Assembly (NCBI GenBank): GCA_030526225.1
Contig: JAUNDF010000003.1
Location: 1 to 59,541 of the forward strand
DNA length: 59,541 nt
Direction: 5' to 3'
Source: Clostridia bacterium
GTDB taxonomy: Bacteria; Bacillota; Clostridia; Christensenellales; Aristaeellaceae
Shown one piece after another: positions 3,535-52,454 of this stretch. Every line of letters begins with the position of its first letter. The stretch's first letter is position 1. The notes under the pieces were generated by a model. It was not told the DNA's origin, made no database searches, and worked only from the letters and a program-made list of their open reading frames with translations. A program made the position numbers and the translations under genes.

Positions 3535-4482
3535 TTACATGTCTCCTTTCCGGAACAGGGTATACAGGGCATACATGGTGCAGCATACCACCAGACCGAC
3601 GGCCAGGTTCAGGTAGGGAATCAGACCTGCGCTGAACAGCTTGCCGGGGGTGCCGGGGGTGATGAAGGACCACAGATGATTGGCACCTGTGAAGAAGGAA
3701 TAGGTCTTGCTCACCGCATAGAAGGTCAGCGCGGCAACAGACACCACCTTGAAGGTTTTGAAGGTGAAGAACTTCTCCGTCTTATCAAAGCCGAAGGCGC
3801 TCAGGTACAGAATCAGACCGGCACCCATAATGGCACCGCCGGAGAAGCCGCCGCCGGGAGAAATGTGACCATTCATAATCACATACATGCCGAACAGAAG
3901 CACCACAGGCACCAGCACCTGTGCAATCTTCTGGAGAATCAGGTCGTGCTTGGGCTCGGTCATGCGGTCGTGGGCTTCCTCCTCCAGTGCACCGGCAGGG
4001 TCGCCCTGACCGATGCGCAGCAGAATCATCACCGCGCAGGCGGCGATAAACAGCACGTTGCTTTCACCCAGGGTATCGAAGGCACGGTAATCCAGAATCA
4101 TGCCGGCCACGATGTTCACAGCGCCGGTTTCCTCCATGCCCTTTTCAATATACCGGCGGGATACCTCGTTGTTGGCCGGGTCGGCGGCGTTGCCGAACTC
4201 GGGCAGCTGCATGGCAGTCATCAGCAGGAACGCAATGATGCCGCAGCACATCAGTGCTGCCAGAATGCGGTATACAAGCTGGTAGAAGTTGACATGCTTT
4301 GCTTTCTTCTTTTCCCATGTGCGATGGTGCTGCACTGCCGGTGCCGCAGGAGCAGCCTCCTGTGCGGTGTCATCGTCATAGTCGCTCTGGAGGGCTTCAT
4401 CCAGCGCGGAATCGTAATGCATCAGCCAGTGGCCCAGCCGGTCGCGGCGGCTGCCGGACATATCATGCTTGAGCTTTGCCAT
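3535..4482 (-). CDS. Fused MbhE (MrpA C-terminal) and MrpB/MbhF antiporter subunit
   Basis: A 315-residue membrane protein. Residues 1-65 are charged and cytoplasmic. A first module at about residues 70-155 (NIVAGMILDYRAFDTLGESN) matches the tail of MrpA, called MbhE in hydrogenase complexes. A second module at about residues 175-310 is MrpB (MnhB), with the conserved GHISPGGGFSGGAIMGAG. The ATG at 4482 (MAKLKHD) is chosen; the longer frame from 4536 would extend too deep into the upstream gene, which ends at 4463. The stop is TAA. Two subunits that are separate in Mbh systems are joined here. Confidence 0.85.
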   Translation of the reverse strand: MAKLKHDMSGSRRDRLGHWLMHYDSALDEALQSDYDDDTAQEAAPAAPAVQHHRTWEKKKAKHVNFYQLVYRILAALMCCGIIAFLLMTAMQLPEFGNAADPANNEVSRRYIEKGMEETGAVNIVAGMILDYRAFDTLGESNVLFIAACAVMILLRIGQGDPAGALEEEAHDRMTEPKHDLILQKIAQVLVPVVLLFGMYVIMNGHISPGGGFSGGAIMGAGLILYLSAFGFDKTEKFFTFKTFKVVSVAALTFYAVSKTYSFFTGANHLWSFITPGTPGKLFSAGLIPYLNLAVGLVVCCTMYALYTLFRKGDM

Positions 4483-4765
4483 CCTCGGCCACCTCCTTGT
4501 CGTAAACGGATTCCTTATGGCGGTCAGCCAGGTCAATGGCGTGAATCTTCTTCAGCGTGGCAAACATCAGCAGGCTGTCAATGCCCGCGCCCACAGCGGC
4601 CTCGGTGATGGCCAGATCGGGAGATTCCAGCAGCACCCAGACCACGCTCAGTGCCAGACTCATGGACATGAACAGCACAATGGAGCGCAGCAGGTTTTTG
4701 CTGAAGGCCACTGCCACGGCGCAGCCGATGATGAATATCAGCAGGATAATGTTCAATGCTTCCAT
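4463..4765 (-). CDS. DUF4040 antiporter subunit (MbhD-like, detached piece of MrpA)
   Basis: A 100-residue protein with three hydrophobic helices. It carries the hallmark ESPDLAITEAAVGAG, the MbhD/DUF4040 domain that normally lies in the C-terminal part of MrpA. The ATG is at 4765, and the stop (TGA) overlaps the start of the next gene by about 20 bases, so the two are translationally coupled. A free-standing DUF4040 subunit points to the split-MrpA layout of Mbh/Mbx/Mbs complexes rather than the seven-gene bacterial Mrp operon. Confidence 0.88.
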   Translation of the reverse strand: MEALNIILLIFIIGCAVAVAFSKNLLRSIVLFMSMSLALSVVWVLLESPDLAITEAAVGAGIDSLLMFATLKKIHAIDLADRHKESVYDKEVAEDGKAQA

Positions 4766-4767
4766 TG

Positions 4768-5121
4768 TCAGTTATCCTCCTTTTCATGGGCTACGGCCTC
4801 GGGGTCACCGATGGCAACCACCTTGGGCAGATCCTCGTTGATGGTAACCTCCAGCTTGCCAATCAGATGAGAGGCAACGGGGGAGGTGAGCCACAGCATG
4901 GGGATAATCAGCAGGAACTTGACGGATGTAATGTCAAAGCCCTCGGCGATAATCAGGCCCAGCAGCATCAGCAGAATGCCAAGGCTGTCCAGCAGGGCAG
5001 CGGCATGGATGCGGTTGAGTGAGTAACGGAAACGGAACACGCCCAGCACGCCGGAGATGATGACAAACAGACCCACGGCGGTGCACACAAGGCTCAATGC
5101 AAAGCGGATGAAATCAAGCAT
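4768..5121 (-). CDS. mrpG: Na+/H+ antiporter subunit G (MrpG/MbhC)
   Basis: A 117-residue protein with three helices. It shows the MrpG pattern GVFRFRYSLNRIHAAALLDSLG near residue 35 and LTSPVASHLIGK in the middle. The ATG at 5121 is chosen over the ATG at 5127, because GGAGA sits one base from the upstream ATG but six bases from this one. It overlaps the end of mrpF by eight bases. The stop is TGA. It is an accessory membrane subunit of the antiporter. Confidence 0.9.
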   Translation of the reverse strand: MLDFIRFALSLVCTAVGLFVIISGVLGVFRFRYSLNRIHAAALLDSLGILLMLLGLIIAEGFDITSVKFLLIIPMLWLTSPVASHLIGKLEVTINEDLPKVVAIGDPEAVAHEKEDN

Positions 5122-5434
5122 GGTCATTCTCCTTTCCGTTTTCGTTTTCCTGATGAAGCTTCTGGCGGTATACGCCGATGTAAATCTTGCTGAGGATAAC
5201 CACCGCAAGGAAGGACAGCATGGCGTAGATGATGGCTACATCAGCCAGATAGCCCTCGCCCTTGACAAAGGCCAGCACGCAGATGATGATGAGAATCAGG
5301 GTGCCCATCATGTTGACGGCGATGATTTTGTCGGCAATGCGCGTGCCGGTGATGGCGCGGATCAGGCAGATGCAAAGCAGAACGCCCAATACCACCATCA
5401 CAATGTTGTACATGATGCTGTATGCCTGTGTCAT
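5114..5434 (-). CDS. mrpF: Na+/H+ antiporter subunit F (MrpF/MbhB)
   Basis: A 106-residue protein with three helices. The MrpF signature is visible in CLIRAITGTRIADKIIAVNM, followed by the DVAIIYAMLSFLAVVILSK helix. The ATG is at 5434, overlapping the mrpE stop (5431-5433) as ATGA. The stop is TGA. In characterised Mrp systems MrpF is required for ion or cholate efflux. Confidence 0.9.
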   Translation of the reverse strand: MTQAYSIMYNIVMVVLGVLLCICLIRAITGTRIADKIIAVNMMGTLILIIICVLAFVKGEGYLADVAIIYAMLSFLAVVILSKIYIGVYRQKLHQENENGKENDHA

Positions 5435-5901
5435 GCTTTTTTGCCTCCTTCCACAGCCATGATGCGCTGCTGCATTTCGCTGTCTTCAATGCCCTCGGAG
5501 AATTCCGTGTCCAGTGCATGCACAAGGAACAGGTCCTCATGCACGTCCACGGTGATGGTGCCGGGGGTCAGGGTGATGGAATTGGCCAGAACCGTTTTGC
5601 CCATGTCGGTCTTCAGCTTTGTTTTAAAGCTGACCAGCTGGGGCTCAATCTCCCGGTCAAAGGCCCAGATCAGGCGAATGGTGGCACCGGCGCTGCGGGT
5701 GATTTCGCCAACCAGATACACCAGATAGCGGAAAAAGCCCGGGATGCGCCTGGCGAACTGCCAGTCACGCTTGGGTGAATACCCCATGAACTTCCACATA
5801 AAAAGATACAGCAAACCACTGAGTACAGCGCCGGTCACGGCAATCTCAGTTGTCCACTGCCCATTGAGAAGTATCCACACTGCAAATAGAACAAAGAACA
5901 T
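5431..5901 (-). CDS. mrpE: Na+/H+ antiporter subunit E (MrpE/MbhA)
   Basis: A 156-residue protein and the first gene of the antiporter operon. Two N-terminal helices are followed by the MrpE core: EITRSAGATIRLIWAFDREI, then LANSITLTPGTITVDVHED, the most conserved part of the family. The ATG at 5901 (MFFVLFAVW) has a clear GAAGGAGGT ten bases upstream; the frame remains open to 6003 but without a good ribosome site there. A promoter lies at 5959-5987. The stop is TGA. Confidence 0.92.
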   Translation of the reverse strand: MFFVLFAVWILLNGQWTTEIAVTGAVLSGLLYLFMWKFMGYSPKRDWQFARRIPGFFRYLVYLVGEITRSAGATIRLIWAFDREIEPQLVSFKTKLKTDMGKTVLANSITLTPGTITVDVHEDLFLVHALDTEFSEGIEDSEMQQRIMAVEGGKKA

Positions 5902-5958
5902 GCTTGCACAAACCTCCTTCAGTGCATGACAAATAATGCCTGAAAAACAAGCAAAAAC

Positions 5959-7257: not shown

Positions 7258-8469
7258 ATGGCAAAGGAACATATCGGCATTATGGGCGGTACCCTGGACC
7301 CCATTCATGAGGGCCACATCCGCATGGCCAGAGCTGCCGCCAAGACGGTGCGTCTGGACAGAATCATCATGCTGCCCACCGGCAACCCGCCCCATAAGAC
7401 CAACATCTCTCCCGCAGAGGACCGCTGGCGGATGCTCTGTGCCGCCACCGCCAAGGAACCCATGCTGGAGCCCAGCCGCATGGAGATGGACCGGGAGGGC
7501 GTGATTTACACCGTCGACACCCTCCGGGAAATCCAGCAGCAGAACCCCAAGGCAGAGCTGTACTACATGATTGGCTCCGATACCCTGCTGGATTTGAAAA
7601 ACTGGCGCAATTACGAGCAGGTGCTGACCATGTGCCGCTTTCTTGTCTGCCCGCGCCCCTGGGATGCTTCGCCCGAGGAAATCACCGAGGAGCGCAAGCG
7701 GCTGACGGCCATGGGCGGCAAATTTATTTCTGTGGATATGGAGCCGGTGGATGTGGCTTCCTCCGAGCTTCGCAAAGCGCTTTGTGAGGATAAGCCTGCC
7801 CCGCATCTGCCGGTGGTGTGTGCCACCTATGCACGGCTTGCGGGACTCTACGGCATCGCGCCCCATCTGGACCGCGCAGAAGAGTGGCTCGGCAAGCTGT
7901 TTGCCGATTTAACGGTCAAGCGCTTTGCCCACACGCTGGCAGTGACCCACACGGCACGGCAGCTGGCCATGCTCCATGGGGTGGATGTGAAAAAGGCAGA
8001 GGTTGCCGCCGTACTGCATGACTGCGCAAAGTGCATGCCGCTGAAGGAAATGCAGGCCATCTGCCGGGAGCATTCCCTGACGGATGACCCTGCCGTGCTG
8101 GAAAGCGGTGCACTGATGCATTCTCTGGTGGGCGCCTATCTGGCCTCTGAAAAGTACGGGGTGGAGGATCCCGATATTCTCCATGCCATTGCCAACCACA
8201 CCACCGGCTGTGCGGAGATGACGCGCCTTGATATGGTGGTGTATCTGGCCGACAAAATCGAACCCACCCGGGATCCGTATCCCACCCTTGACCGGGTTCG
8301 TATGTTGGCACAGCTCAGCCTGTAGCACGCACTGCTGGTCAGCATCGAGGGAACAGGGGAGCATGTGAAGAAGGGCGGCAAGGCTGTTCATCCCAAAACG
8401 CTTGAAACCATCAAATGGCTGAAAACCTTGCCGGAAATCCAGCAGAAAACAAGGAAATCCGACACCTGA
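7258..8469 (+). CDS. nadD: NadD-YqeK fusion: nicotinate-nucleotide adenylyltransferase plus HD-domain Ap4A hydrolase, with in-frame TAG
   Basis: A 403-residue fusion if the TAG at 8323-8325 (codon 356) is read through. The first half is NadD, which makes NaAD from NaMN: GGTLDPIHEGHI near the start, SDTLLDLKNW, and SSELRKAL. The second half (from about residue 205) is a YqeK HD phosphohydrolase that cuts Ap4A symmetrically; KRFAHTLAV and VLHDCAK hold the metal ligands. After TAG the frame continues HALLVSIEGTGEHVKKGG to TGA at 8467-8469, which is the expected YqeK C-terminal helix ending in a HPKTLE motif. Without read-through the HD domain would lack its last helix. rsfS follows, as in most Bacillota, where nadD and yqeK are usually adjacent separate genes. 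Start ATG 7258 with GAAAGAG upstream. Confidence 0.9.
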
Positions 8470-10619: not shown

Positions 10620-11978
10620 ATGAGTGAGCTGCGCGGAGCAACGCCGCCCAACAGTGTTGAGGCGGAGCGTTCTGTTCTCGGTGCCATGCTGCAGGATCAG
10701 AATGCCGTGATGCAGGCGGTGGAGCAGCTTACCGCAGACGACTTCTACCAGCCCATGCACCATGAAATCTTTGATTGCATGGTCAACCTTTTCCGCAATC
10801 AGACCCCTGTGGACCTGATTACCGTGGACAACGAGCTTTCCCGCCGCGGTACCCTGGAGGGTGTGGGCGGCACAGCATATCTGATTCACCTGAGTCAGGC
10901 CGTGCCCACCACCGCCAATGTCAAGGCCTATATCGGGCTGGTGGCGGAAAAAAGCACCCTCCGCAAGCTGATTACGGCCTCCCAGCAAATCAGTCAGGAG
11001 TGCTACAGTCAGCAGGACCCTCTGCAGGATGTGATGAATCACGCGGAGAAGGCAATCTTCGACATCGTGATGAACCGCACCAGCGGCGATGCACTGGTTC
11101 ATGTGAAGGAAGTCCTGTACAATACTTATGCCAACATCGAGGAACTCAGCCGGCTGAAGGGCGGCATTTCCGGTGTCCCCACCGGCTTCACGGCGCTGGA
11201 TAATCTGCTCACCGGCATGCATGGCGGCGAACTGATTCTCGTCGGCGCCCGTCCTTCCATGGGCAAAACCTCCTTTGCCATGAACATTGCCTCCTATGCC
11301 GGCATCTATGCCAAAAAGCATGTGGCAGTGTTCTCGCTGGAAATGCCCCGTGAGCAGATTGCACTGCGTATGCTTTGCTCCGATGCGCGGGTGGATATGC
11401 AGAAGGTCCGTCAGGGCCGCCTTGCCGCCGATGACTGGATGCGCCTTGCCAAGTCCATCGGGGTCATGGCCGATGCGCCCATCTACATCGATGATACCGC
11501 CGGCATTACGCCCAGCCAGCTTCGCAGCCGTCTGCGCCGGCTGATGATGGACAAGGGCCTCGACCTTGTGGTGCTGGACTATCTGGGCCTGATGCACTGC
11601 GACGGCAAGGTTGAAAACCGCCAGCTGGAGGTCAGTGAAATCTCCCGCCAGCTCAAGGCCATCGCGCTGGAATTAAAGATTCCGCTGATTGCCTGCGCGC
11701 AGCTGTCCCGTGCGCTGTCTACCCGTGTGGATAAACGCCCCATTCTTTCCGACCTTCGTGACTCCGGCTCCATCGAACAGGACGCTGACGTGGTTATGTT
11801 TATCCACCGCGAAGGCTACTATGACCCCAACTGTGAGGAAAAGAATGTGGGTGAATGCATCATCGCCAAGCAGAGAAACGGCCCTTTGGGTACGGTCAAG
11901 CTGGCATGGCTTAGCGAATACACCACCTACGCCAATCTGGCACCCGAATCTAACTATGCCGGTGACGCGCCCTTCTGA
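10620..11978 (+). CDS. dnaB: Replicative DNA helicase DnaB/DnaC
   Basis: A 452-residue hexameric helicase that unwinds DNA ahead of the replisome. The N-terminal DnaB domain begins PPNSVEAERSVLGAMLQD. The RecA-like ATPase core has the Walker A GARPSMGKTSF and the Walker B VVLDYLGLM, then AQLSRALSTRVDKRP and SDLRDSGSIEQDADVV. No intein is present. The ATG at 10620 is preferred over the one at 10611, because GGAGG lies eight bases upstream of it. The C-terminal tail is short (APF). The stop is TGA. Confidence 0.97.
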   Translation: MSELRGATPPNSVEAERSVLGAMLQDQNAVMQAVEQLTADDFYQPMHHEIFDCMVNLFRNQTPVDLITVDNELSRRGTLEGVGGTAYLIHLSQAVPTTANVKAYIGLVAEKSTLRKLITASQQISQECYSQQDPLQDVMNHAEKAIFDIVMNRTSGDALVHVKEVLYNTYANIEELSRLKGGISGVPTGFTALDNLLTGMHGGELILVGARPSMGKTSFAMNIASYAGIYAKKHVAVFSLEMPREQIALRMLCSDARVDMQKVRQGRLAADDWMRLAKSIGVMADAPIYIDDTAGITPSQLRSRLRRLMMDKGLDLVVLDYLGLMHCDGKVENRQLEVSEISRQLKAIALELKIPLIACAQLSRALSTRVDKRPILSDLRDSGSIEQDADVVMFIHREGYYDPNCEEKNVGECIIAKQRNGPLGTVKLAWLSEYTTYANLAPESNYAGDAPF

Positions 11979-13905: not shown

Positions 13906-14358
13906 ATGACCGGGCGACAGAGAAAAGCACTGCAGCTGTTTTCCAAGGGCTTTAACTGCGCCCAGAGCGTGCTGATGGCCTACAGCGATGTGGCAGGGCT
14001 TACGGAAGAGCAGGCCGCCAATGTTGCCGCCGGGCTCGGTGCCGGTGTGGGGCGGCTGCGTTAGGTGTGCGGCGCATTTTCAGCCGCAGCCATGCTTTGC
14101 GGTCCCATATCAGGCGAGGATGCTTCCCAAAAGGATGTCCGGGACCGGGTATATGCCCGGGTACAGGATGTCCATGCCCGGTTTGTCCGCGATTGGGGCT
14201 CTGTTGTCTGTGCGGATTTGCTGCATATTCCCCGTGGTGCGCAGGAAGCAAAGCCTGCCGAACGCAATCAGGCGTACTATCAATCCAGACCCTGTGCGAA
14301 AATCATACGGTCGATTTGTGTGATTCTCGATGAGGAACTGGGAAAGCAAGGAATGTAA
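13906..14358 (+). CDS. C_GCAxxG_C_C family protein with in-frame TAG
   Basis: Reads as a 150-residue protein with one TAG at codon 53 (14062-14064) and a TAA stop at 14356-14358. The family (TIGR01909) is small, Cys-rich and of uncertain function, thought to be redox or metal related. Its pattern spans the TAG: FNCAQSVLMAY near residue 17, GLGAGVGRLR, then the TAG, then VCGAFSAAAML. In relatives the position before VCGA is usually Glu or Gln. Later cysteines in VVCADLL and RPCAKII complete the pattern. The ATG at 13906 follows AGGGG, and the next gene starts three bases after the TAA. With TAG as stop only a 52-residue stub would remain, so recoding is more likely than decay. Confidence 0.85.
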
Positions 14359-14361
14359 CAC

Positions 14362-15486
14362 ATGAAAGCATTGATTCTGACCACCCATACCGGCGGCGGC
14401 CATGATGCCGCGGCAAAGGCCATCACCGATGCACTGGAAGCAAAGGGCGTGGAGTGCCGCATCATGGACTGCGTTGCCTTTGCCGGCAGATGGGTGTCCC
14501 GCATTGTCAGCAACAGCTATGTGAAGATGGTCCAGAAGACGCCCAACCGCTTTGGACACATTTATCGTCTGGGGCAGATTATCTCCACGCCGCGGATGCG
14601 TTCGCCGATTTATGCGGCCAACTGTACCTATGCCCATCGCATGCGCAAAACGCTGGATGAAATCAAGCCGGACATGATTGTCTGCACCCACCTGTTCGGT
14701 GCGCAGACGGTTCAGCATCTGATTAAGCACAAGGACTACAGCGGGCTGCACTGCATGATTCTCACTGATTATACCAACTGGCCCTTTGTGGAGGATGTGC
14801 ATCCGGATGTGATGTGCATCGGTCACAAGTGCATGGAGCAGCAGCTGATTGACAAGAAAATCCCTGCTGAATGCCTGTATCCGCTGGGCATTCCGGTTAA
14901 TCCTGCCTGCCGTCCCTGCTATGACAAGCAGGAAGCAAAGCGGGCCATCGGTCTTGATGAAAACTGCAGGGAAGTGCTGATGGTGGGCGGCTCCATGGGC
15001 GCGGGCAATCTGCCCGAAGCCATCAGCCGCATTATTCCGGCACTGGGTGAAAACGGCCATCTGTCTGTGGTCTGCGGCTCCAACAAGCTGGCTGTTGATC
15101 AGGCAAAGCAGATGTTTGGCGACAACAAACAGGTAACGGTGTACGGCCGGGTCAGCCCCCTGTATCCCATGATGGCGGCGGCTGATGTGCTGGTTACCAA
15201 AACCGGCGGCCTGACCTCCTCTGAAGCCATGACCGTGGGCGTGCCCATTGTAGGCTTCCACCCCATTCAGGGCTGCGAAACGGCGAACATGGAATTTATG
15301 GAAAAGCACGGCATGGCAGTTCATGCCCGTGATGATGAGGAGCTGACCGCGCTCGTCCGAGATTTGCTTCAGGATGATGAAAAGCGGGCGAGGATGATTA
15401 AAGCCCAGCACGATAACATCGATCCTGACTGTGCCGAGCATCTGGCATAGCTGCTGATTGAAAAAACGCTGCAGCATCAACAATAA
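14362..15486 (+). CDS. MGDG-synthase-like glycosyltransferase (UgtP/MurG fold) with in-frame TAG near the end
   Basis: A 374-residue GT28-type glycosyltransferase if TAG at 15448-15450 (codon 363) is read. The N-terminal MGDG_synth domain shows TTHTGGGHDAAAKAI and LFGAQTVQHL. The C-terminal nucleotide-sugar domain has VMVGGSMGAGNLPE and KTGGLTSSEAMTVGVP. Related enzymes glucosylate or galactosylate diacylglycerol at the membrane to make glycolipids. After TAG the frame adds LLIEKTLQHQQ and stops at TAA, eight bases before a terminator hairpin. This extension is short, so taken alone it is weak evidence for read-through, but the residues fit a helix continuing from AEHLA. The ATG at 14362 is three bases after the preceding gene. 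Confidence 0.88.
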
Positions 15487-16115: not shown

Positions 16116-16601
16116 ATGCTGACGAAAGAGCGTGAGCAGCTGCGGATGCTGATGGCGCAGGCAGGGTTTCACAGAAGACCGGCTCTGAAGCGCTGTCAGG
16201 ACCCCGATTATCTGATGGCCACCGATTTTCCTGCGGCTGCTTCGGAGGAGCAAACAGAAGTGTTTGTCCATTCTCTGCAGAATCATGGCTGGCTGTGCAC
16301 CCGAAAGGGAAACTGGCTGTTTCTGGATAAAGAAAGCTACGAATTGCCAAACCCGCCCGTACCGGACACGATACCGGCAGGTGAAATCGGCTGCTGTATC
16401 AGTCTCCTTCAGCGGCATATGTCTGATTGCGGAGACATTCGGCTTGTTCGGCTGCTGATGAAAACGGCGGATGAATCGGCACAAAAAACAGAAGCGTTAT
16501 GTCTTGTCTGGCACCGTGAATGGGCAGCCGGACTGCGCCGGGGTTAGTCGCTGCCTGGGCGCGTATACCCCTATTTATTGCTGGCGGCAGAGGTGATATA
16601 A
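16116..16601 (+). CDS. Hypothetical protein with in-frame TAG
   Basis: I do not recognise this protein. It reads as 161 residues with TAG at codon 144 (16545-16547) and a TAA stop at 16599-16601. The middle (VFVHSLQNHGWLCTRKGNW) looks like a small mixed fold with a winged-helix-like beta turn. Just before the TAG is HREWAAGLRRG, and just after it SLPGRVYPYLLLAAEVI. The second part looks like a plausible amphipathic C-terminal helix rather than random sequence. If read through, the gene ends two bases before the ATG of the next gene (16604), whose ribosome site AGAGGTG lies inside it. That gives the tight spacing seen elsewhere in this operon. Confidence 0.7.
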
Positions 16602-16603
16602 TC

Positions 16604-17257
16604 ATGATTATCAAAAACATCGGTCATGCCATGTTCCTGCTGGAGCTGGATAACGGCCAGCGTATTGTTACGGACCCCGTGGACCATGAATCCGGCTATC
16701 CGGTGGAACGGATTGCGGCAGATACGGTGCTTGTATCCCACAAGCATCACGACCACTGTGCCATGGAAAATGTGCAGGGCTGGTCCCGGTGTATTGATGC
16801 GGCAGGAACGTATCTGGCCGGATGCGATGTCAGCATTCAGGCGGTGCTCTGCTTCCACGATGACAAGCATGGGACACTGCGCGGCAATAACCTGATGATG
16901 ATTCTGGAGGCCGAAGGATTGAAGGTGGTCCATTTGGGAGACCTTGGTCATCCGCTGACAGATGAACAGGCGAAGGCGGCCATGTATGCCGATTTGCTGA
17001 TGGTTCCGGTGGGCGGCTTCTACACCATCGATGCCGCCGCGGCCAAGGAGCTGGCAGACCGCCTGCAGGCTCGTGTTGTATTGCCCATGCATTACAGAAC
17101 GAAGTACAACAGCGATTGGCCCATTGCCACGGAAGAAGATTTCCTTGCGTATTATGCGCCGGAAAGCATTCGCCGCCAGCATGAACTGCGGGTAACGGCA
17201 GGGGATTTGGTCTGCATCCCGCCGGTGGTGCTGCTGGATGCCCAGCTGAAGGGCTGA
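16604..17257 (+). CDS. UlaG-like metallo-beta-lactamase-fold hydrolase
   Basis: A 217-residue MBL-fold protein. The metal-binding motif appears as SHKHHDHC at about residues 45-52, followed by LGDLGHPL and a C-terminal PMHY with the last histidine ligand. Proteins of this type (UlaG/L-ascorbate-6-phosphate lactonase clan, also called UPF0173) often have unknown substrates. The ATG at 16604 (MIIKNIGHAMFLLE) is favoured; the frame stays open upstream only because it overlaps the previous gene. The stop is TGA. Confidence 0.85.
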   Translation: MIIKNIGHAMFLLELDNGQRIVTDPVDHESGYPVERIAADTVLVSHKHHDHCAMENVQGWSRCIDAAGTYLAGCDVSIQAVLCFHDDKHGTLRGNNLMMILEAEGLKVVHLGDLGHPLTDEQAKAAMYADLLMVPVGGFYTIDAAAAKELADRLQARVVLPMHYRTKYNSDWPIATEEDFLAYYAPESIRRQHELRVTAGDLVCIPPVVLLDAQLKG

Positions 17258-35162: not shown

Positions 35163-35522
35163 ATGAACGAAGAAGCCGAGGTATGCAGCTTCCTGCATGT
35201 GCATGAGGATACAGTGGCTGAAGTGCGGGAAAAGCTGCCTGATGAAAACACGCTTCAGGGCCTTTCCGAGCTGTTTAAAATGCTGGGGGATGCCACCCGC
35301 ATCAAAATCCTGTATGTGCTGTTTGAGGCATAGGTGTGCGTGTGTGATATCGCCCAGCTGCTGGGCATGACACAGTCTGCCATTTCCCATCAGCTGCGGC
35401 TGCTCAAGCAGGCACGGCTGGTCAAGTCACGCCGGGATGGAAAAATCATTTTCTATTCTCTGGCAGATGATCATGTGGCCACACTGCTCCGTCAGGGTAC
35501 CGAGCATGTGAATGAGGACTGA
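35163..35522 (+). CDS. ArsR/SmtB-type metalloregulator with in-frame TAG
   Basis: A 119-residue repressor if TAG at codon 57 (35331-35333) is read. N-terminal part: FKMLGDATRIKILYVLFEA. Directly after TAG comes VCVCDIAQLLGMTQSAISHQ, the metal-binding and recognition helix. In CadC and SmtB this motif is ELCVCD or ELCVGD, with Glu exactly where the TAG lies. The wing RRDGKIIFYSLADDHV and a His/Glu C-terminus (GTEHVNED) complete the fold. It probably senses a soft divalent metal (inference from CVCD and the histidines). GGAGG is seven bases upstream of the ATG; a terminator follows the TGA at once. A target pump gene is not visible nearby. Confidence 0.9.
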
Positions 35523-47519: not shown

Positions 47520-48350
47520 TCAGTAATATCGTTCAAGTGAGTACTTCTTAACCTTGGTGGCGGTGGATTCGGCTGTCAGGTCAATGCGCTTCCATTCGCC
47601 GTCAATCAATACCATGTTCCAGGCGTGATATACCTTGTCAGCGTAGCCGATGCACAGCTGGGTGGGAATGCCCTGGGAGCGCAGCATACAGGCAGTTAAT
47701 GCGGCGTAGTCAAAGCAGATGCCCTTGCCGCCGTCCAGTACGGCATCCAAATCAGGCAGATAGCCGGTGGACACATTCAGTGCAAGGATGTAGTCGTATT
47801 GCAGCGTCTTCAGCACAAACTTGCTGACTGCTTCCAGCTTTTCGCTGTCGGAAGATAATCCGCCGCAGATTTCAGCAGCCTTGGCCACAGCCTTGGTGGA
47901 CTGGGTGTAATTTACATACTGGTTCGGTCCAAGGAAGCATGCCTCCTCCGGGCTGAAGGAGGAAACCGTAAAGGTCTGGGAAGATACAGAGGCGTACTTC
48001 TTGCCGGATTTGCGCTTGAACACGCTCACCTTGTACTTGCCCTCACCCAACTGCAGGGGGAAGACCTCCCAGTTGCCGTTGGAATTCAGGTCGTAGGTCA
48101 ATGTATTCTTGCCCTTTTCGACCCGGAGCTTCAGGTCGCCGGAGGCTTTCTCCTGCTTGACCATGATGTAGCCCTGGTCCGCATGGGTGATATCAATCAC
48201 CGTGCCTGATTTCTTCAGGGTCTTATTGCCGGTTTCCGGCCAAATCGGGCTTTGCGCTGCCAGCACGATTGCACACAAAAGCACAACAAACACAGCCAGT
48301 AGGCCGGCTGCCATGCTGTGTCCCCGAATCTTGCGTGTCATCGCTCTCAT
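47520..48350 (-). CDS. Transglutaminase-like secreted protein
   Basis: A 276-residue protein. An N-terminal membrane helix or signal (LLAVFVVLLCAIVLA) is followed by a beta-rich domain (about residues 45-135) and a transglutaminase-like papain-fold domain. The catalytic triad is visible as Cys in GKGICFDYAALTACML, His in YHAWNMVL and Asp in RIDLT. Such domains act as proteases or cross-linkers on the cell surface. It sits between the regulator and PilC in one operon. The stop is TGA. Confidence 0.82.
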   Translation of the reverse strand: MRAMTRKIRGHSMAAGLLAVFVVLLCAIVLAAQSPIWPETGNKTLKKSGTVIDITHADQGYIMVKQEKASGDLKLRVEKGKNTLTYDLNSNGNWEVFPLQLGEGKYKVSVFKRKSGKKYASVSSQTFTVSSFSPEEACFLGPNQYVNYTQSTKAVAKAAEICGGLSSDSEKLEAVSKFVLKTLQYDYILALNVSTGYLPDLDAVLDGGKGICFDYAALTACMLRSQGIPTQLCIGYADKVYHAWNMVLIDGEWKRIDLTAESTATKVKKYSLERYY

Positions 48351-48373
48351 GTCTTGCTAACCTCACATTTATC

Positions 48374-49603
48374 TTAGCCGTCGATATCCTTGCTTCCGCC
48401 ATCCGGTGTTCCGCTGCTGGTCAGGGGACCGAGCCGATAGGTCAGGATGAAATTGGAGCTGGGGAAGCGGGCGTAGAATTTGCTCTTCAGCCGCTCCATC
48501 ACCATCCGGCCGGAATCATAGTTGATGGTGGGCAGCAGCATGGCAAACTGTGTTGCACTGAACTGGGTAATGGTATCGCCCTTGCGCAGGCTGGATTTCA
48601 GCACCGCGGCCAGTCCGCTCATCACTTCGTTGAGCATCAGCGGGGCGATGGTCTGGCTGTTGTCGGTGGGTACCACCATCAGCAGCGCCAGGAACATGCT
48701 GGAGCCAAGCCGCTCCAGATTGCGCATCTGCAGATTGTAAATTTCCTTAAACACGGAGTAATCGCAGAAGAATGCGCCGGATACCTCGCTGTATGCGCGA
48801 AGCTCACCGCGGATGGCATCCAGGTTATCCTAAAGGTTGCTGCTCACATGGGCAATCTGCTTGTAAAACTCCTGTACGCCTTCAGGGGGCTGTACGCCGA
48901 GGTAGTGATAGTGCAGATTGGTCACGTGCTTGTACTGCATCAACGCTTCGTTGTTGCGATTTGTTTTAATCAGCGCATTCATTAGCTGGAGATGCAGCTG
49001 CTCATCAAAGGCATCCACATCCAGTGCGTGACGGCAGACGGAGATGATTTCTTCCCAGTTCTCTTTCTGCTCCAGCAATCCGAGATAGTGATAAACAAGC
49101 TTCAGATAATTGTCATTGAGCAGGGAAGAGAAGCCGGCGTACCAGCTGTGCTTTTCATCACCGCTGAGCAAATCGCCTGCGTACAGATGAATGGCCTTGC
49201 GGAACAGGGGTGCAGTTTCCTCGTCCAGCACATTCACATCCAGCAGCCGACCGGCCAGATCCTCAAATTCATACACGTCCACCGATACGTTTTCGTTGCT
49301 CTTCCAGCGGTAGCTGCCGCGTTCGGTGGCAATGCAGGCGCTCAGGTCGGGACTGATTTGCCCCAGAATCACACGGAAGCGGCTGATGAGCGTTTTCAGT
49401 GCGTTTTCGGGGTTGGTGGATGTTTCGCCGCCCCACATGATTTCAATCAGCTTGGAGGTGGTGATAGCCTGTCCGTGCTCCAAAATCAAAAACTGCATCA
49501 GGGCCATGCCCTTGCGGGATTTGTTGATTACAGCATCCATGTTTACGCCGTCAAGCGTTACGTGAAAGCCGCCGAGCAGGGAAACATGAATGTGGGCTGC
49601 CAT
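48374..49603 (-). CDS. BTAD-type transcriptional regulator with degenerate GGDEF-like domain and in-frame TAG
   Basis: A 409-residue protein when TAG at codon 258 (complement of 48830-48832) is read. It starts with an OmpR-type winged helix (LLGGFHVTLDGVNM, KLIEIMWGG) at residues 1-100, then a BTAD helical domain at about 105-250 ending LGVQPPEGVQEFYKQIAHV. After the TAG comes DNLDAIRGELRAYSEVSGAF, the usual linker helix. The tail is a GGDEF-like domain in which the signature is FSATQF, so it cannot make c-di-GMP. As two frames these would be a 257-residue regulator and an orphan tail without a ribosome site. It heads the pilus-like operon and likely regulates it. TAAAGGAG precedes the ATG; the final stop is TAA. 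Confidence 0.88.
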
Positions 49604-49667
49604 TTGTCCATCTCCTTTAAATTGTTATAAAAATGTTGGTGGTTACACGCGTTACATATCCTTTATC

Positions 49668-49696
49668 ATTATATCAGTTATCGGTGCATCTTGCAA
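49668..49696 (-). promoter_or_regulatory. Sigma-A promoter of the BTAD regulator and pilus-like operon
   Basis: On the minus strand, TTGCAA (49691-49696), 17 bases and a perfect TATAAT (49668-49673), 65 bases before the ATG. Confidence 0.78.
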
Positions 49697-49720
49697 CCCA
49701 TGTAATCCGATTGTTACAGC

Positions 49721-49762
49721 AAAAATGCCTGAAAATCGGAAAACTTTTTCCAACTTTCAGGC
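49721..49762 (-). terminator. Terminator after the NSS transporter gene
   Basis: GCCTGAAA / TTTCAGGC outer stem with an inner GGAAAA / TTTTCC stem, followed on the minus strand by a T-run. Confidence 0.7.
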
Positions 49763-49788
49763 ATCATATGATGATATTGACAGAAGTA

Positions 49789-51147
49789 TTATACCAGACC
49801 CTGGATAATCAGAATCACAATCAGCACAGGCAGTACAAACTGCAGGAAGGGCTTCAGAGCCCGGGGGAGCTTCATGCCCTCGCCGCTGTTGCATTCCTTC
49901 AGGTAGTTATCAAAGCCCCAGCCCCAGCGGGATACGCAGAACAGCAGATATACCAGCGCACCGATGGGCAGCAGCAGGTTGGATACGATGAAATCCTCGC
50001 TGTCCAGCACATCCCGGCCGCCAATCAGGTGCAGGTTCTGCCACACATTGTAACCCAGCACACAGGGGATGGAAGCAATCAGGATAAACAGACCGTTGTA
50101 CAGTACAGCTTTCTTGCGGCTGATGTGGAACATCTCCTCGGTGAAGGACATGATGTTCTCAAATACCGCAATAATGGTGGAGAAGCTGGCAAAGCTCATG
50201 AACAGGAAGAACAGGGAGCCCCAGATTCTGCCGCCGGGCATGTTGACGAACACATTGGGCAGCGTTACAAAAATCAGGGAAGGACCTGCGTCAGGCTGAA
50301 TGCCATAGGTGAAGCAGGCGGGGAAGATAATCAGGCCGGACATGATGGCCACAAATGTATCCAGCGCGCAGATACGCAGGGATTCGCCGGTCAGGGTCTT
50401 ATCCCCGGGCATAAAGCTGCCGAAGATTTCCATGGCGGCAATGCCAAGGCTCAGGGTAAAGAAGGCCTGATTCATGGCGGCGGTCACCGTTTGCCACACA
50501 CCGTTGCTGCGGATGGCGTTCAGGTTGGGCTCAAGGTAGAACTTCAGGCCCTCACCGGCACCGGAAAGCATCAGGCTGTTGACGGCCAGCACCAAAATCA
50601 GCACCAGCAATGCGGACATCATCACCTTGCTGACCTTTTCAATGCCCTTCTGCAAACCGCGGCTGCAAACCAGCAGACCCAGCAGAACAGTAATGGCCAT
50701 CCAGATGCCCATTTCCAGCGGATCGGCCAGCAGACTGCCGAATACGGCACTCACCTGAGCGGGCTCTGTCATTTTGCTGAACGCGCCGCCGGCAAACTTG
50801 AAGAAGAAAGCGAGCATCCAGCCGGAAACGGTGGTGTAATACATCATCAGCAGATAACAGCCAAGCATGCAGAACCAGCCGTGGATGTGCCACTTGTGCC
50901 CCGGCTTTTCCAATGTTTTGTAGCTGAGTACAGCGCCCTTTCGGCTGGCGCGGCCCACAGCCAGCTCCATGGTCAGCACAGGGACACCCATCACCAGCAA
51001 AAACAGAAGGTACAGCAGGACGAAAAAGCCGCCGCCGTTTTGACCCACCACATAGGGGAAGCGCCATACATTGCCGATGCCGATGGCACAGCCGGCGCTG
51101 ACCAGTATGAACCCAAGCCGGGACTTGAAGTTTTCTCTCTTATTCAT
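49789..51147 (-). CDS. Neurotransmitter:sodium symporter (NSS) family transporter
   Basis: A 452-residue LeuT-fold transporter with 11-12 membrane helices. The signature helix 1, SAGCAIGIGNVWRFPYVVGQ, carries the sodium and substrate site, and helix 6 reads FFTLSLGIAAMEIFGSFM. Bacterial relatives carry amino acids such as tyrosine, tryptophan or alanine; the substrate cannot be told. It lies last in a small operon after a ROK kinase and DUF3842. AGGAG precedes the ATG at 51147. The stop is TAA. Confidence 0.92.
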   Translation of the reverse strand: MNKRENFKSRLGFILVSAGCAIGIGNVWRFPYVVGQNGGGFFVLLYLLFLLVMGVPVLTMELAVGRASRKGAVLSYKTLEKPGHKWHIHGWFCMLGCYLLMMYYTTVSGWMLAFFFKFAGGAFSKMTEPAQVSAVFGSLLADPLEMGIWMAITVLLGLLVCSRGLQKGIEKVSKVMMSALLVLILVLAVNSLMLSGAGEGLKFYLEPNLNAIRSNGVWQTVTAAMNQAFFTLSLGIAAMEIFGSFMPGDKTLTGESLRICALDTFVAIMSGLIIFPACFTYGIQPDAGPSLIFVTLPNVFVNMPGGRIWGSLFFLFMSFASFSTIIAVFENIMSFTEEMFHISRKKAVLYNGLFILIASIPCVLGYNVWQNLHLIGGRDVLDSEDFIVSNLLLPIGALVYLLFCVSRWGWGFDNYLKECNSGEGMKLPRALKPFLQFVLPVLIVILIIQGLV

Positions 51148-51162
51148 ATGATGCTCCTGTTA

Positions 51163-51573
51163 TTATTTCTCAAGCATTTTGACTGCGGCGCTGACCGCAT
51201 CGCGGACAGCATCTGCCATGGTCGCTGCCGTGCAGCCGGCAACCGTCGTCTGGCAGCGGGACACAGGCACAAGAATCTTGTGTGCCTTGCTGGAACCGAT
51301 GGCGCAGGCAATGTCACCTGTCACCTCACCCAGCATGGCATCGCACAGTACCATGCCGATGGGACAAAGAATCAAATCGGCATTCCGGGCGCAAACACGA
51401 ATGGCATTTTCACCCGTTGCACCCTGATCGGCACCGGCCCGCAGCATGGCGGCGGTTGCCAGAGAGTTGGTTCCGACGGCAATGATTTTCTGTGCGGGCA
51501 GGGCTGCCTTCAGCTGCTCTACCAGCTGCTTGCCGATTCCGCCGCCCTGAGCATCAATCACAACTACGTTCAT
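51163..51573 (-). CDS. DUF3842 protein
   Basis: A 136-residue protein opening MNVVVIDAQGGGIGKQLVEQ, a nucleotide-binding-like glycine loop characteristic of DUF3842 from Clostridia. The middle has ADLILCPIGMVL. The family has no known function. Its start overlaps the stop of the ROK kinase gene (ATGA), and the transporter follows 15 bases after its TAA, so the three are co-expressed. Confidence 0.8.
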   Translation of the reverse strand: MNVVVIDAQGGGIGKQLVEQLKAALPAQKIIAVGTNSLATAAMLRAGADQGATGENAIRVCARNADLILCPIGMVLCDAMLGEVTGDIACAIGSSKAHKILVPVSRCQTTVAGCTAATMADAVRDAVSAAVKMLEK

Positions 51574-52454
51574 GCTTCCTCCAATGCACGGCGCGCCAGC
51601 AGATAGGCACCCAGCACGCCGCTGTTTTCACCGCATCCGGGCGGTACGATGTAGTCATTCGCGCCATCGGTGATGGCAGGGGATGCGATATAGCCATTTA
51701 ACGACTGCGCGACCAGCCTGCGGACCTTGTCAAACAGGAAATGCTGATGCATCACGCCGCCGCCGAGGATAATCTTCTCGGGGGAAAAGGCAGTGATAGC
51801 GTTGTGGCACATGCTGGCAAGATAATATGCCTCGATATCCCACGCCACGTGATCTTCAGGTATTTGGAATGCAGGCATGCCCCACCGTTTTTCCAACGCA
51901 GGACCGGCGGCAAGCCCCTCAAGGCAGCCCTTGTGATAGGGACAGAAGCCGTCAGGGGAAGGGTCGCGCTCGACAGGCCGAAGCAGCATATGGCCAAGCT
52001 CTGGGTGAACCAAACCATGCACCGCTTTGCCGTCAATCACCAATCCGCCGCCGATGCCCGTGCCGATTGTCACATACAGGCAGGAGCCCAGTCCCTGTGC
52101 AGCACCGTAAGCATGTTCAGCCAGCGCGGCTGCGTTCACATCCGTGTCAATGGCGCAGGGGATTTGGAGAGCTTCCCGGAATTTGGAAAGAATCGGGTAA
52201 TCCTTCCAGGCCAGCTTGGGTGTTTTGGTAATGCTGCCATAGGAAGCGCTTGCCGGGTTTAAATCCAGCGGACCAAAGCACCCGATGCCCAACGAATCCA
52301 CCTGATGATTGCGGAAAAAGTCAATCATGACCGGCATGGTAACAGATGGTGGTTCTGTAGGGATGGATTCCCGGACAAGAATCTGTCTGTTCTCATCCAG
52401 AATGCTCAGTACCATCTTTGTGCCGCCGGCTTCAAGGGCACCGAAATGCAGCAT
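51570..52454 (-). CDS. ROK family sugar kinase (probable fructokinase)
   Basis: A 294-residue kinase. The N-terminal phosphate loop is GALEAGGTKMVLSIL. The sugar and zinc region reads HPELGHMLLRPVERD, then CPYHKGCLEGLAAGPALEKRWG, the pattern of Bacillus-type ROK fructokinases. The glycine loop near the middle is VTIGTGIGGGLVI. It phosphorylates a hexose with ATP; fructose is the best guess by motif. The ATG at 52454 follows AGGAGGG by six bases. The stop is TGA. Confidence 0.85.
   Translation of the reverse strand: MLHFGALEAGGTKMVLSILDENRQILVRESIPTEPPSVTMPVMIDFFRNHQVDSLGIGCFGPLDLNPASASYGSITKTPKLAWKDYPILSKFREALQIPCAIDTDVNAAALAEHAYGAAQGLGSCLYVTIGTGIGGGLVIDGKAVHGLVHPELGHMLLRPVERDPSPDGFCPYHKGCLEGLAAGPALEKRWGMPAFQIPEDHVAWDIEAYYLASMCHNAITAFSPEKIILGGGVMHQHFLFDKVRRLVAQSLNGYIASPAITDGANDYIVPPGCGENSGVLGAYLLARRALEEA

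Follow-up and report, generated by a model that had tools for sequence, protein, structure and literature searches.

Changes of the genetic code that were known in bacteria until the work of Shulgina and Eddy (PMC8629427) all concerned UGA, and the new bacterial codes reported by these authors involve arginine codons. The change of UGA to Trp is what a survey of 42,109 genomes from 2026 (PMC13092985) treats. Here we describe a gut bacterium, of an uncultured Clostridia lineage, in whose genome, in our opinion, UAG means glutamate throughout and RF1 has been lost. We consider this reading very likely (probability of about 0.88), given that it rests on one assembly, without reads or proteomics, and that neither a decoding tRNA nor RF2 is found in that assembly.

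The bacterial UGA codes (Trp in Mycoplasmatales and reduced endosymbionts, Gly in Absconditabacteria and Gracilibacteria) resemble this case, since there too a stop codon has become a sense codon on a chromosome and the change goes along with loss of the corresponding release factor, which for UGA is RF2. The differences are that here the codon is UAG and the lost factor RF1, and that the genome is not reduced and A+T-rich, but has a size of at least 2.2 Mb and 56% G+C. TAG is also read as an amino acid in the crAss-like and other gut phages that use genetic code 15, by means of a suppressor tRNA (PMC9523058, PMC10879173); however, the hosts of these phages use the standard code and the amino acid is Gln, whereas we are dealing with a bacterial chromosome, a deleted RF1 and, by our inference, Glu. 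The nuclear code of Blastocrithidia, where UAR is read as Glu, shares the meaning of UAG (PMC12153298), but it is eukaryotic and has UAA and UGA changed as well, while UAA remains the main stop in our genome. Bacteria that use pyrrolysine do decode UAG as an amino acid (PMC7593587, PMC8318568); our genome, unlike them, has no detectable PylS, and its housekeeping proteins are inferred to carry plain Glu at UAG. Finally, the RF1-deleted E. coli strains (C321.deltaA, RFzero) lack RF1 and have RF2 as the sole terminator (PMC6207430, PMC6387211), which for our genome is an inference; those strains are engineered, whereas here RF1 was lost in nature and UAG has been put to new use. We found no bacterial UAG-to-Glu code in the open-access literature that we searched, although an earlier report is not excluded.

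The window, that is the whole stretch of DNA analysed (59,541 nucleotides), contains a gene with a TAG in its middle:

13906 to 14358, plus strand: gene for a C_GCAxxG_C_C (PF09719) redox-type protein, recognised by its Pfam match with the TAG read through
14062 to 14064, plus strand: in-frame TAG, codon 53 of this gene, read here as Glu on the basis of the homologues

The initial annotation, made from the letters of this DNA, had placed this TAG inside the core motif of the family, between GRLR and VCGA, and had claimed that all downstream cysteines are kept and that the frame closes at a TAA three bases ahead of the next gene. All three claims hold. The TAG is indeed in frame and flanked by these two motifs. 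With the TAG read through, residues 16-143 match PF09719 with 98.7 bits (cut-off 27) over profile positions 1-117 of 118, a full-length match with spaced cysteines on both sides of the TAG, thus the cysteines 3' of the codon are kept. The open reading frame ends with TAA at 14356-14358, and the ATG of the next gene is at 14362. It had further been stated that Glu or Gln is common at this column. The family alignment then proposed as a check has been made and gives Glu at the column: of 29 homologues of the same family, 21 have Glu there, with Gln, Asp and Met in 2 each and Arg and Leu in 1 each (a homologue was found in 67 of 120 family genomes).

Relaxed selection downstream of the codon had been named as the result that would refute translation of the TAG, and it is not seen. 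The identity of this gene to its homologues is comparable past the TAG, and in 12 TAG-bearing genes the identity to relatives averages 0.58 up to the first TAG and 0.63 beyond it (Wilcoxon p 0.57). Only genes with at least one relative that reaches 40% identity entered this comparison; synonymous rates were left out of it, as they would be unreliable between relatives so distant. Hence the view that the TAG is translated and is not the mark of a pseudogene is supported, both by the Glu at the column and by the constraint past it. The composition 3' of the TAG in this gene is below background, though still the best of six frames, so the case for this particular gene rests on homology; a PDB search with the protein returned no relative. 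The initial annotation said nothing about the genome-wide extent of the phenomenon, the deletion of RF1 or the meaning being Glu rather than Gln. This TAG is real and, in the light of what follows, we have little doubt that it is one instance of a genome-wide stop-to-sense reassignment, not an oddity of a single gene. Internal TAGs are frequent in G000, the genome described below, and essentially lacking in two relatives, a difference far beyond what chance would give.

The same window holds at least five TAG codons of the sense type, the one above included, and a sixth is probable:

7258 to 8469, plus strand: gene for a NadD-YqeK (HD domain) fusion protein with an in-frame TAG, by comparison with homologues
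8323 to 8325, plus strand: in-frame TAG in the YqeK part of this gene, by alignment to relatives
14362 to 15486, plus strand: gene for an MGDG synthase / GT28-type glycosyltransferase (Pfam MGDG_synth and Glyco_tran_28_C)
15448 to 15450, plus strand: in-frame TAG close to the 3' end of this gene, 11 codons ahead of its TAA, with a downstream part too short for good scoring
16545 to 16547, plus strand: probable sense TAG in the open reading frame 16116-16601, by reading of the sequence only
35163 to 35522, plus strand: gene for an ArsR-family regulator (Pfam HTH_5, 62.5 bits)
35331 to 35333, plus strand: in-frame TAG in the ArsR-family gene, Glu in homologues
48374 to 49603, minus strand: gene for a BTAD-type transcriptional regulator (Pfam BTAD and Trans_reg_C with the TAG read through; gene finder)
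48830 to 48832, minus strand: in-frame TAG in the BTAD-type regulator (gene finder)

The presence of several in-frame TAGs in one window suggested a feature of the whole genome and not of a single gene. In the NadD-YqeK fusion, the TAG column is occupied by Glu in relatives at 67 and 51% identity (GAG in the nearest) and by Pro or Ala in others. The relatives identified with this protein are Clostridia metagenome-assembled genomes, several of them from goat and deer gut. For the ArsR-family regulator, Glu is present both in the homologue from the nearest relative (73% identity) and in CzrA structures. The TAG at 16545 is probably sense because its open reading frame, when read through, stops two bases ahead of the next ATG at 16604; a homologue search for this frame found none. 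Further TAGs, in an open reading frame at 5057-5929 and in plus-strand frames at about 48269-51747, were set aside, as these are shadow frames and not genes.

The genome to which the window belongs (G000 hereafter) is a fragmented bin of 2.19 Mb in 136 contigs, about 80% complete and with 2% contamination. We sampled 684 kb of it, the window included, together with stretches (L102-L119, L123-L162, L204-L223) of two relatives that have RF1, G007, which is the nearest, and G023. Since antisense shadow frames at this G+C content mislead counts of open reading frames in a single sequence, a six-frame gene model was used, with an equal penalty on all three stops. In the first 400 kb of G000 this model placed 26 TAG, 1 TGA and 14 TAA codons inside genes, against 0, 2 and 9 in G007 and 0, 2 and 4 in G023. 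We read the internal TAA cases as adjacent genes sharing a frame, and they occur in the relatives as well. In a larger set, internal TAGs in coding segments number 55 per 185,054 codons in G000, 0 per 229,549 in G007 and 1 per 141,223 in G023, which puts the frequency of TAG in G000 coding sequence at about 3 per 10,000 codons. If those near segment ends are counted, there are 72 distinct in-frame TAGs in the 684 kb. They occur on 28 of 41 stretches and therefore do not come from one contaminant contig. Genes with TAG that are named by NCBIfam models include DnaG (with two TAGs), RpoD, ScpA, RlmN, PrmC, RecD2, WhiA, SbcC and MgtE.

Does TAG still terminate translation of any gene in this genome? 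For every scorable TAG (70 of 70, with at least ten codons downstream) the best of the six frames past the codon is the one in phase, and in 65 cases it also exceeds background. After TAA or TGA the best frame is in phase in only 118 of 373 cases, and also above background in 71. TAG no longer terminates in G000: no clear terminator case is left, and genes end with UAA or UGA.

Some observations concern individual regions. The density of TAG is highest on contig C35 (8 in 17 kb). This contig (L093) carries two tRNA-Ala(GGC) genes, at 4479-4551 and 11220-11292, with equal scores and 6.7 kb apart; the region could be an integrated element lying between the duplicated tRNAs. Two very long open reading frames, L200:6985-16545 (3187 codons) and L096:9576-15998 (2141 codons), have one in-frame TAG each and perhaps encode large surface proteins.

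As to the amino acid, it was inferred from those closest relatives that reach 40% identity, with a model built from the substitution rows of G000's own codons. The 16 usable TAG columns have E in 11, D in 2, T in 2 and V in 1. The log-likelihood at these columns is -21.5 for E, -38.9 for D, -45.4 for Q and -43.6 for a random position; Glu thus leads the next amino acid by 17 log units and Gln by 24. Distant solved structures, searched with the codon masked as X, have Glu at the corresponding position in RecD2 (3e1s), RecD (5ld2), CheR (5ftw), RlmN (6fz6) and CzrA; two differ, a second CheR with Leu and RlmN 3rf9 with Gln. Some TAG columns are occupied by other residues in relatives (T, V, A, K). 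It should be kept in mind that CAG changes to TAG by a transition and GAG by a transversion, so that either random nonsense mutation or decoding as Gln would favour Gln columns, which makes the prevalence of Glu notable. Given reassignment, we hold it very likely that UAG is Glu, albeit as an inference from aligned residues and not from proteomics.

Regarding release factors, a prfA model found no match in the whole G000 assembly; RF2, which this model also picks up in relatives, is likewise absent. The same model exceeds the cut-off in 57 of the 60 genomes searched first and in 179 of 200 sampled family genomes. With an assembly about 80% complete and no RF2 found in it, the absence of prfA is weak evidence alone, and only gene order makes the loss of RF1 firm. 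In G007 the order is rho-rpmE-DUF1385-prmC-prfA-sua5 (this is what we take these genes to be, from our reading of their translations). Contig C109 of G000 has DUF1385-prmC-sua5, with 30 bases from the TGA of prmC to the ATG of sua5; identity to the G007 genes is 58% for prmC and 73% for sua5. The junction lies in the interior of this 38-kb contig, which has nine TAG codons of its own, one of them in prmC itself, where G007 has Glu (MALEVP). As judged by gene order against the nearest relative, prfA has been deleted from the prmC-sua5 interval of G000. That UAG has been reassigned and RF1 lost together in this genome is, we believe, very likely.

Whether other members of the family are recoded cannot be concluded from their sua5 neighbourhoods. 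No prfA hit was obtained in 19 of 200 family genomes, G000 included. Among nine of the genomes without a hit in which sua5 was located, four have pieces of prfA, cut by a contig end or frame-shifted, and five have no adjacent prfA; for one of these five, a differing gene order explains the absence. Loci L230 (genome G185) and L236 (genome G021) have no prfA hit in their genomes, and sua5 is preceded there by neither prfA nor prmC; in G185 a long open reading frame, which we took for dnaE, precedes it.

The decoding tRNA has not been found. Of 43 tRNA matches in the G000 assembly, down to E = 10, none has the anticodon CTA, and nothing was returned by an Rfam search of the whole genome, by ARAGORN on the tRNA loci or by a search of eight genomes for a CTA-anticodon pattern, in which a match at G000:C28:612 proved not to be a tRNA. 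A tRNA-Glu(CTA) pattern also found nothing in a viral collection. However, tRNA-Tyr and tRNA-Ile are missing from the assembly too, hence incompleteness is the simplest reason for the lack of a CUA tRNA. For PylS, G000 gave no match over cut-off; the weak hits, at the level of other synthetases, are obtained in relatives as well. One tRNA-Glu(CTC) (L098:16204-16279, contig C125) has a C27-A43 mismatch and thus an anticodon stem of four base pairs. It adjoins tRNA-Gln(CTG) downstream of a TAG-bearing gene, which looks like a phage tail protein but has no Pfam match. At L039:472-538 (contig C12) there is a weak tRNA match without a proper 5' half, resembling the 3' tRNA end left by integration of an element.

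Several other explanations should be considered. It could be argued that UAG is sense genome-wide but means Gln, as in genetic code 15, through a tRNA-Gln(CUA). Indeed, reassigned TAG is predicted to mean Gln in gut phages (PMC9523058), and among eukaryotic nuclear genomes this meaning is the commonest (PMC8629427); the transition from CAG is mutationally easier, and Gln is present at a minority of homologous residues. It was also our initial working assumption. We dropped it because of the alignment likelihood, where Gln trails Glu by 24 log units and does slightly worse than a random position. None of the 16 best-match residues is Gln either; we now give this reading very little chance. Near-cognate decoding is a subtler alternative: RF1 would be lost and UAG read without a dedicated tRNA, with Glu-tRNA favoured, perhaps the tRNA-Glu(CUC) with the four-pair stem. 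In favour of it are the absence of a CUA tRNA from the assembly, the C27-A43 mismatch, the fact that four-pair stems widen decoding (PMC13092985) and the mistranslation of unassigned UAG in genomically recoded E. coli (PMC6207430). However, the known extension concerns position 34, while CUC reading UAG needs a mismatch at position 36; a mixture of residues would be expected, yet the columns are quite consistently Glu; and with tRNA-Tyr and tRNA-Ile absent too, a missing CUA tRNA is no surprise. In our judgement near-cognate decoding is very improbable.

The two remaining alternatives can be all but dismissed. Ordinary nonsense mutations in decaying genes, or errors of sequencing or binning, might be suspected in a fragmented bin with 2% contamination and no close sister genome for comparison. 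Against this stand 26 internal TAGs versus a single TGA, and no TAG in the relatives in the first count; dnaG and rpoD are among the affected genes and constraint persists downstream. The replaced residues are mostly Glu, which requires a transversion and is unlike the mix expected from nonsense mutation, and RF1 is gone. As for pyrrolysine, which some archaea also read at UAG, gut bacteria that use it exist (PMC7593587), but no PylS exceeds the cut-off in G000, and TAG columns are conserved Glu across unrelated housekeeping families, which leaves it practically no room.

Returning to the reading that we prefer, reassignment of UAG to Glu with loss of RF1, a Glu-charged tRNA with anticodon CUA would decode UAG and RF2 alone would terminate at UAA and UGA; both are inferences. 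In the RF1-bearing relatives TAG terminates 15 of 661 genes (G007) and 3 of 427 (G023), that is about 2% or less, so UAG was near-vacant before the change and loss of RF1 would harm few genes. The likely route would then start with UAG as an already very rare stop in the family, allowing RF1 to be lost at little cost; a Glu-accepting tRNA may next have captured UAG, although this order is inferred; and Glu codons (GAG, through a G-to-T change) would have drifted to TAG in small numbers. We see the change in one assembly only, as no second genome of the genus was examined. A bolder version, which we regard as unlikely, is that Glu is inserted without a cognate tRNA, via the tRNA-Glu with the altered anticodon stem, or else that a tRNA-Gln-like CUA tRNA is charged with Glu and escapes amidation. 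In the latter case such a tRNA might be charged by a non-discriminating GluRS and, if left unamidated, would yield Glu; this is speculation based on what is generally known of Clostridia. If either were true, the new code would have been reached by a molecular mechanism that is itself new, opened up by the loss of RF1.

If our main reading is correct, this would be, as far as we could find in the literature searched, the first code of a bacterial chromosome in which UAG means a standard amino acid, and a natural counterpart to the laboratory RF1-deleted E. coli, at a normal genome size and 56% G+C. It has an immediate practical side, as standard gene calling truncates dozens of G000 proteins, DnaG and RpoD among them, at TAG. 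A code with UAG as Glu is also relevant to how phages get past barriers between codes. Because UAG is still rare in the coding sequence of this lineage, the change may be at an early stage; its RF1-bearing relatives, with almost no TAG stops, represent a plausible prior state and would offer a direct test of the codon-capture idea.
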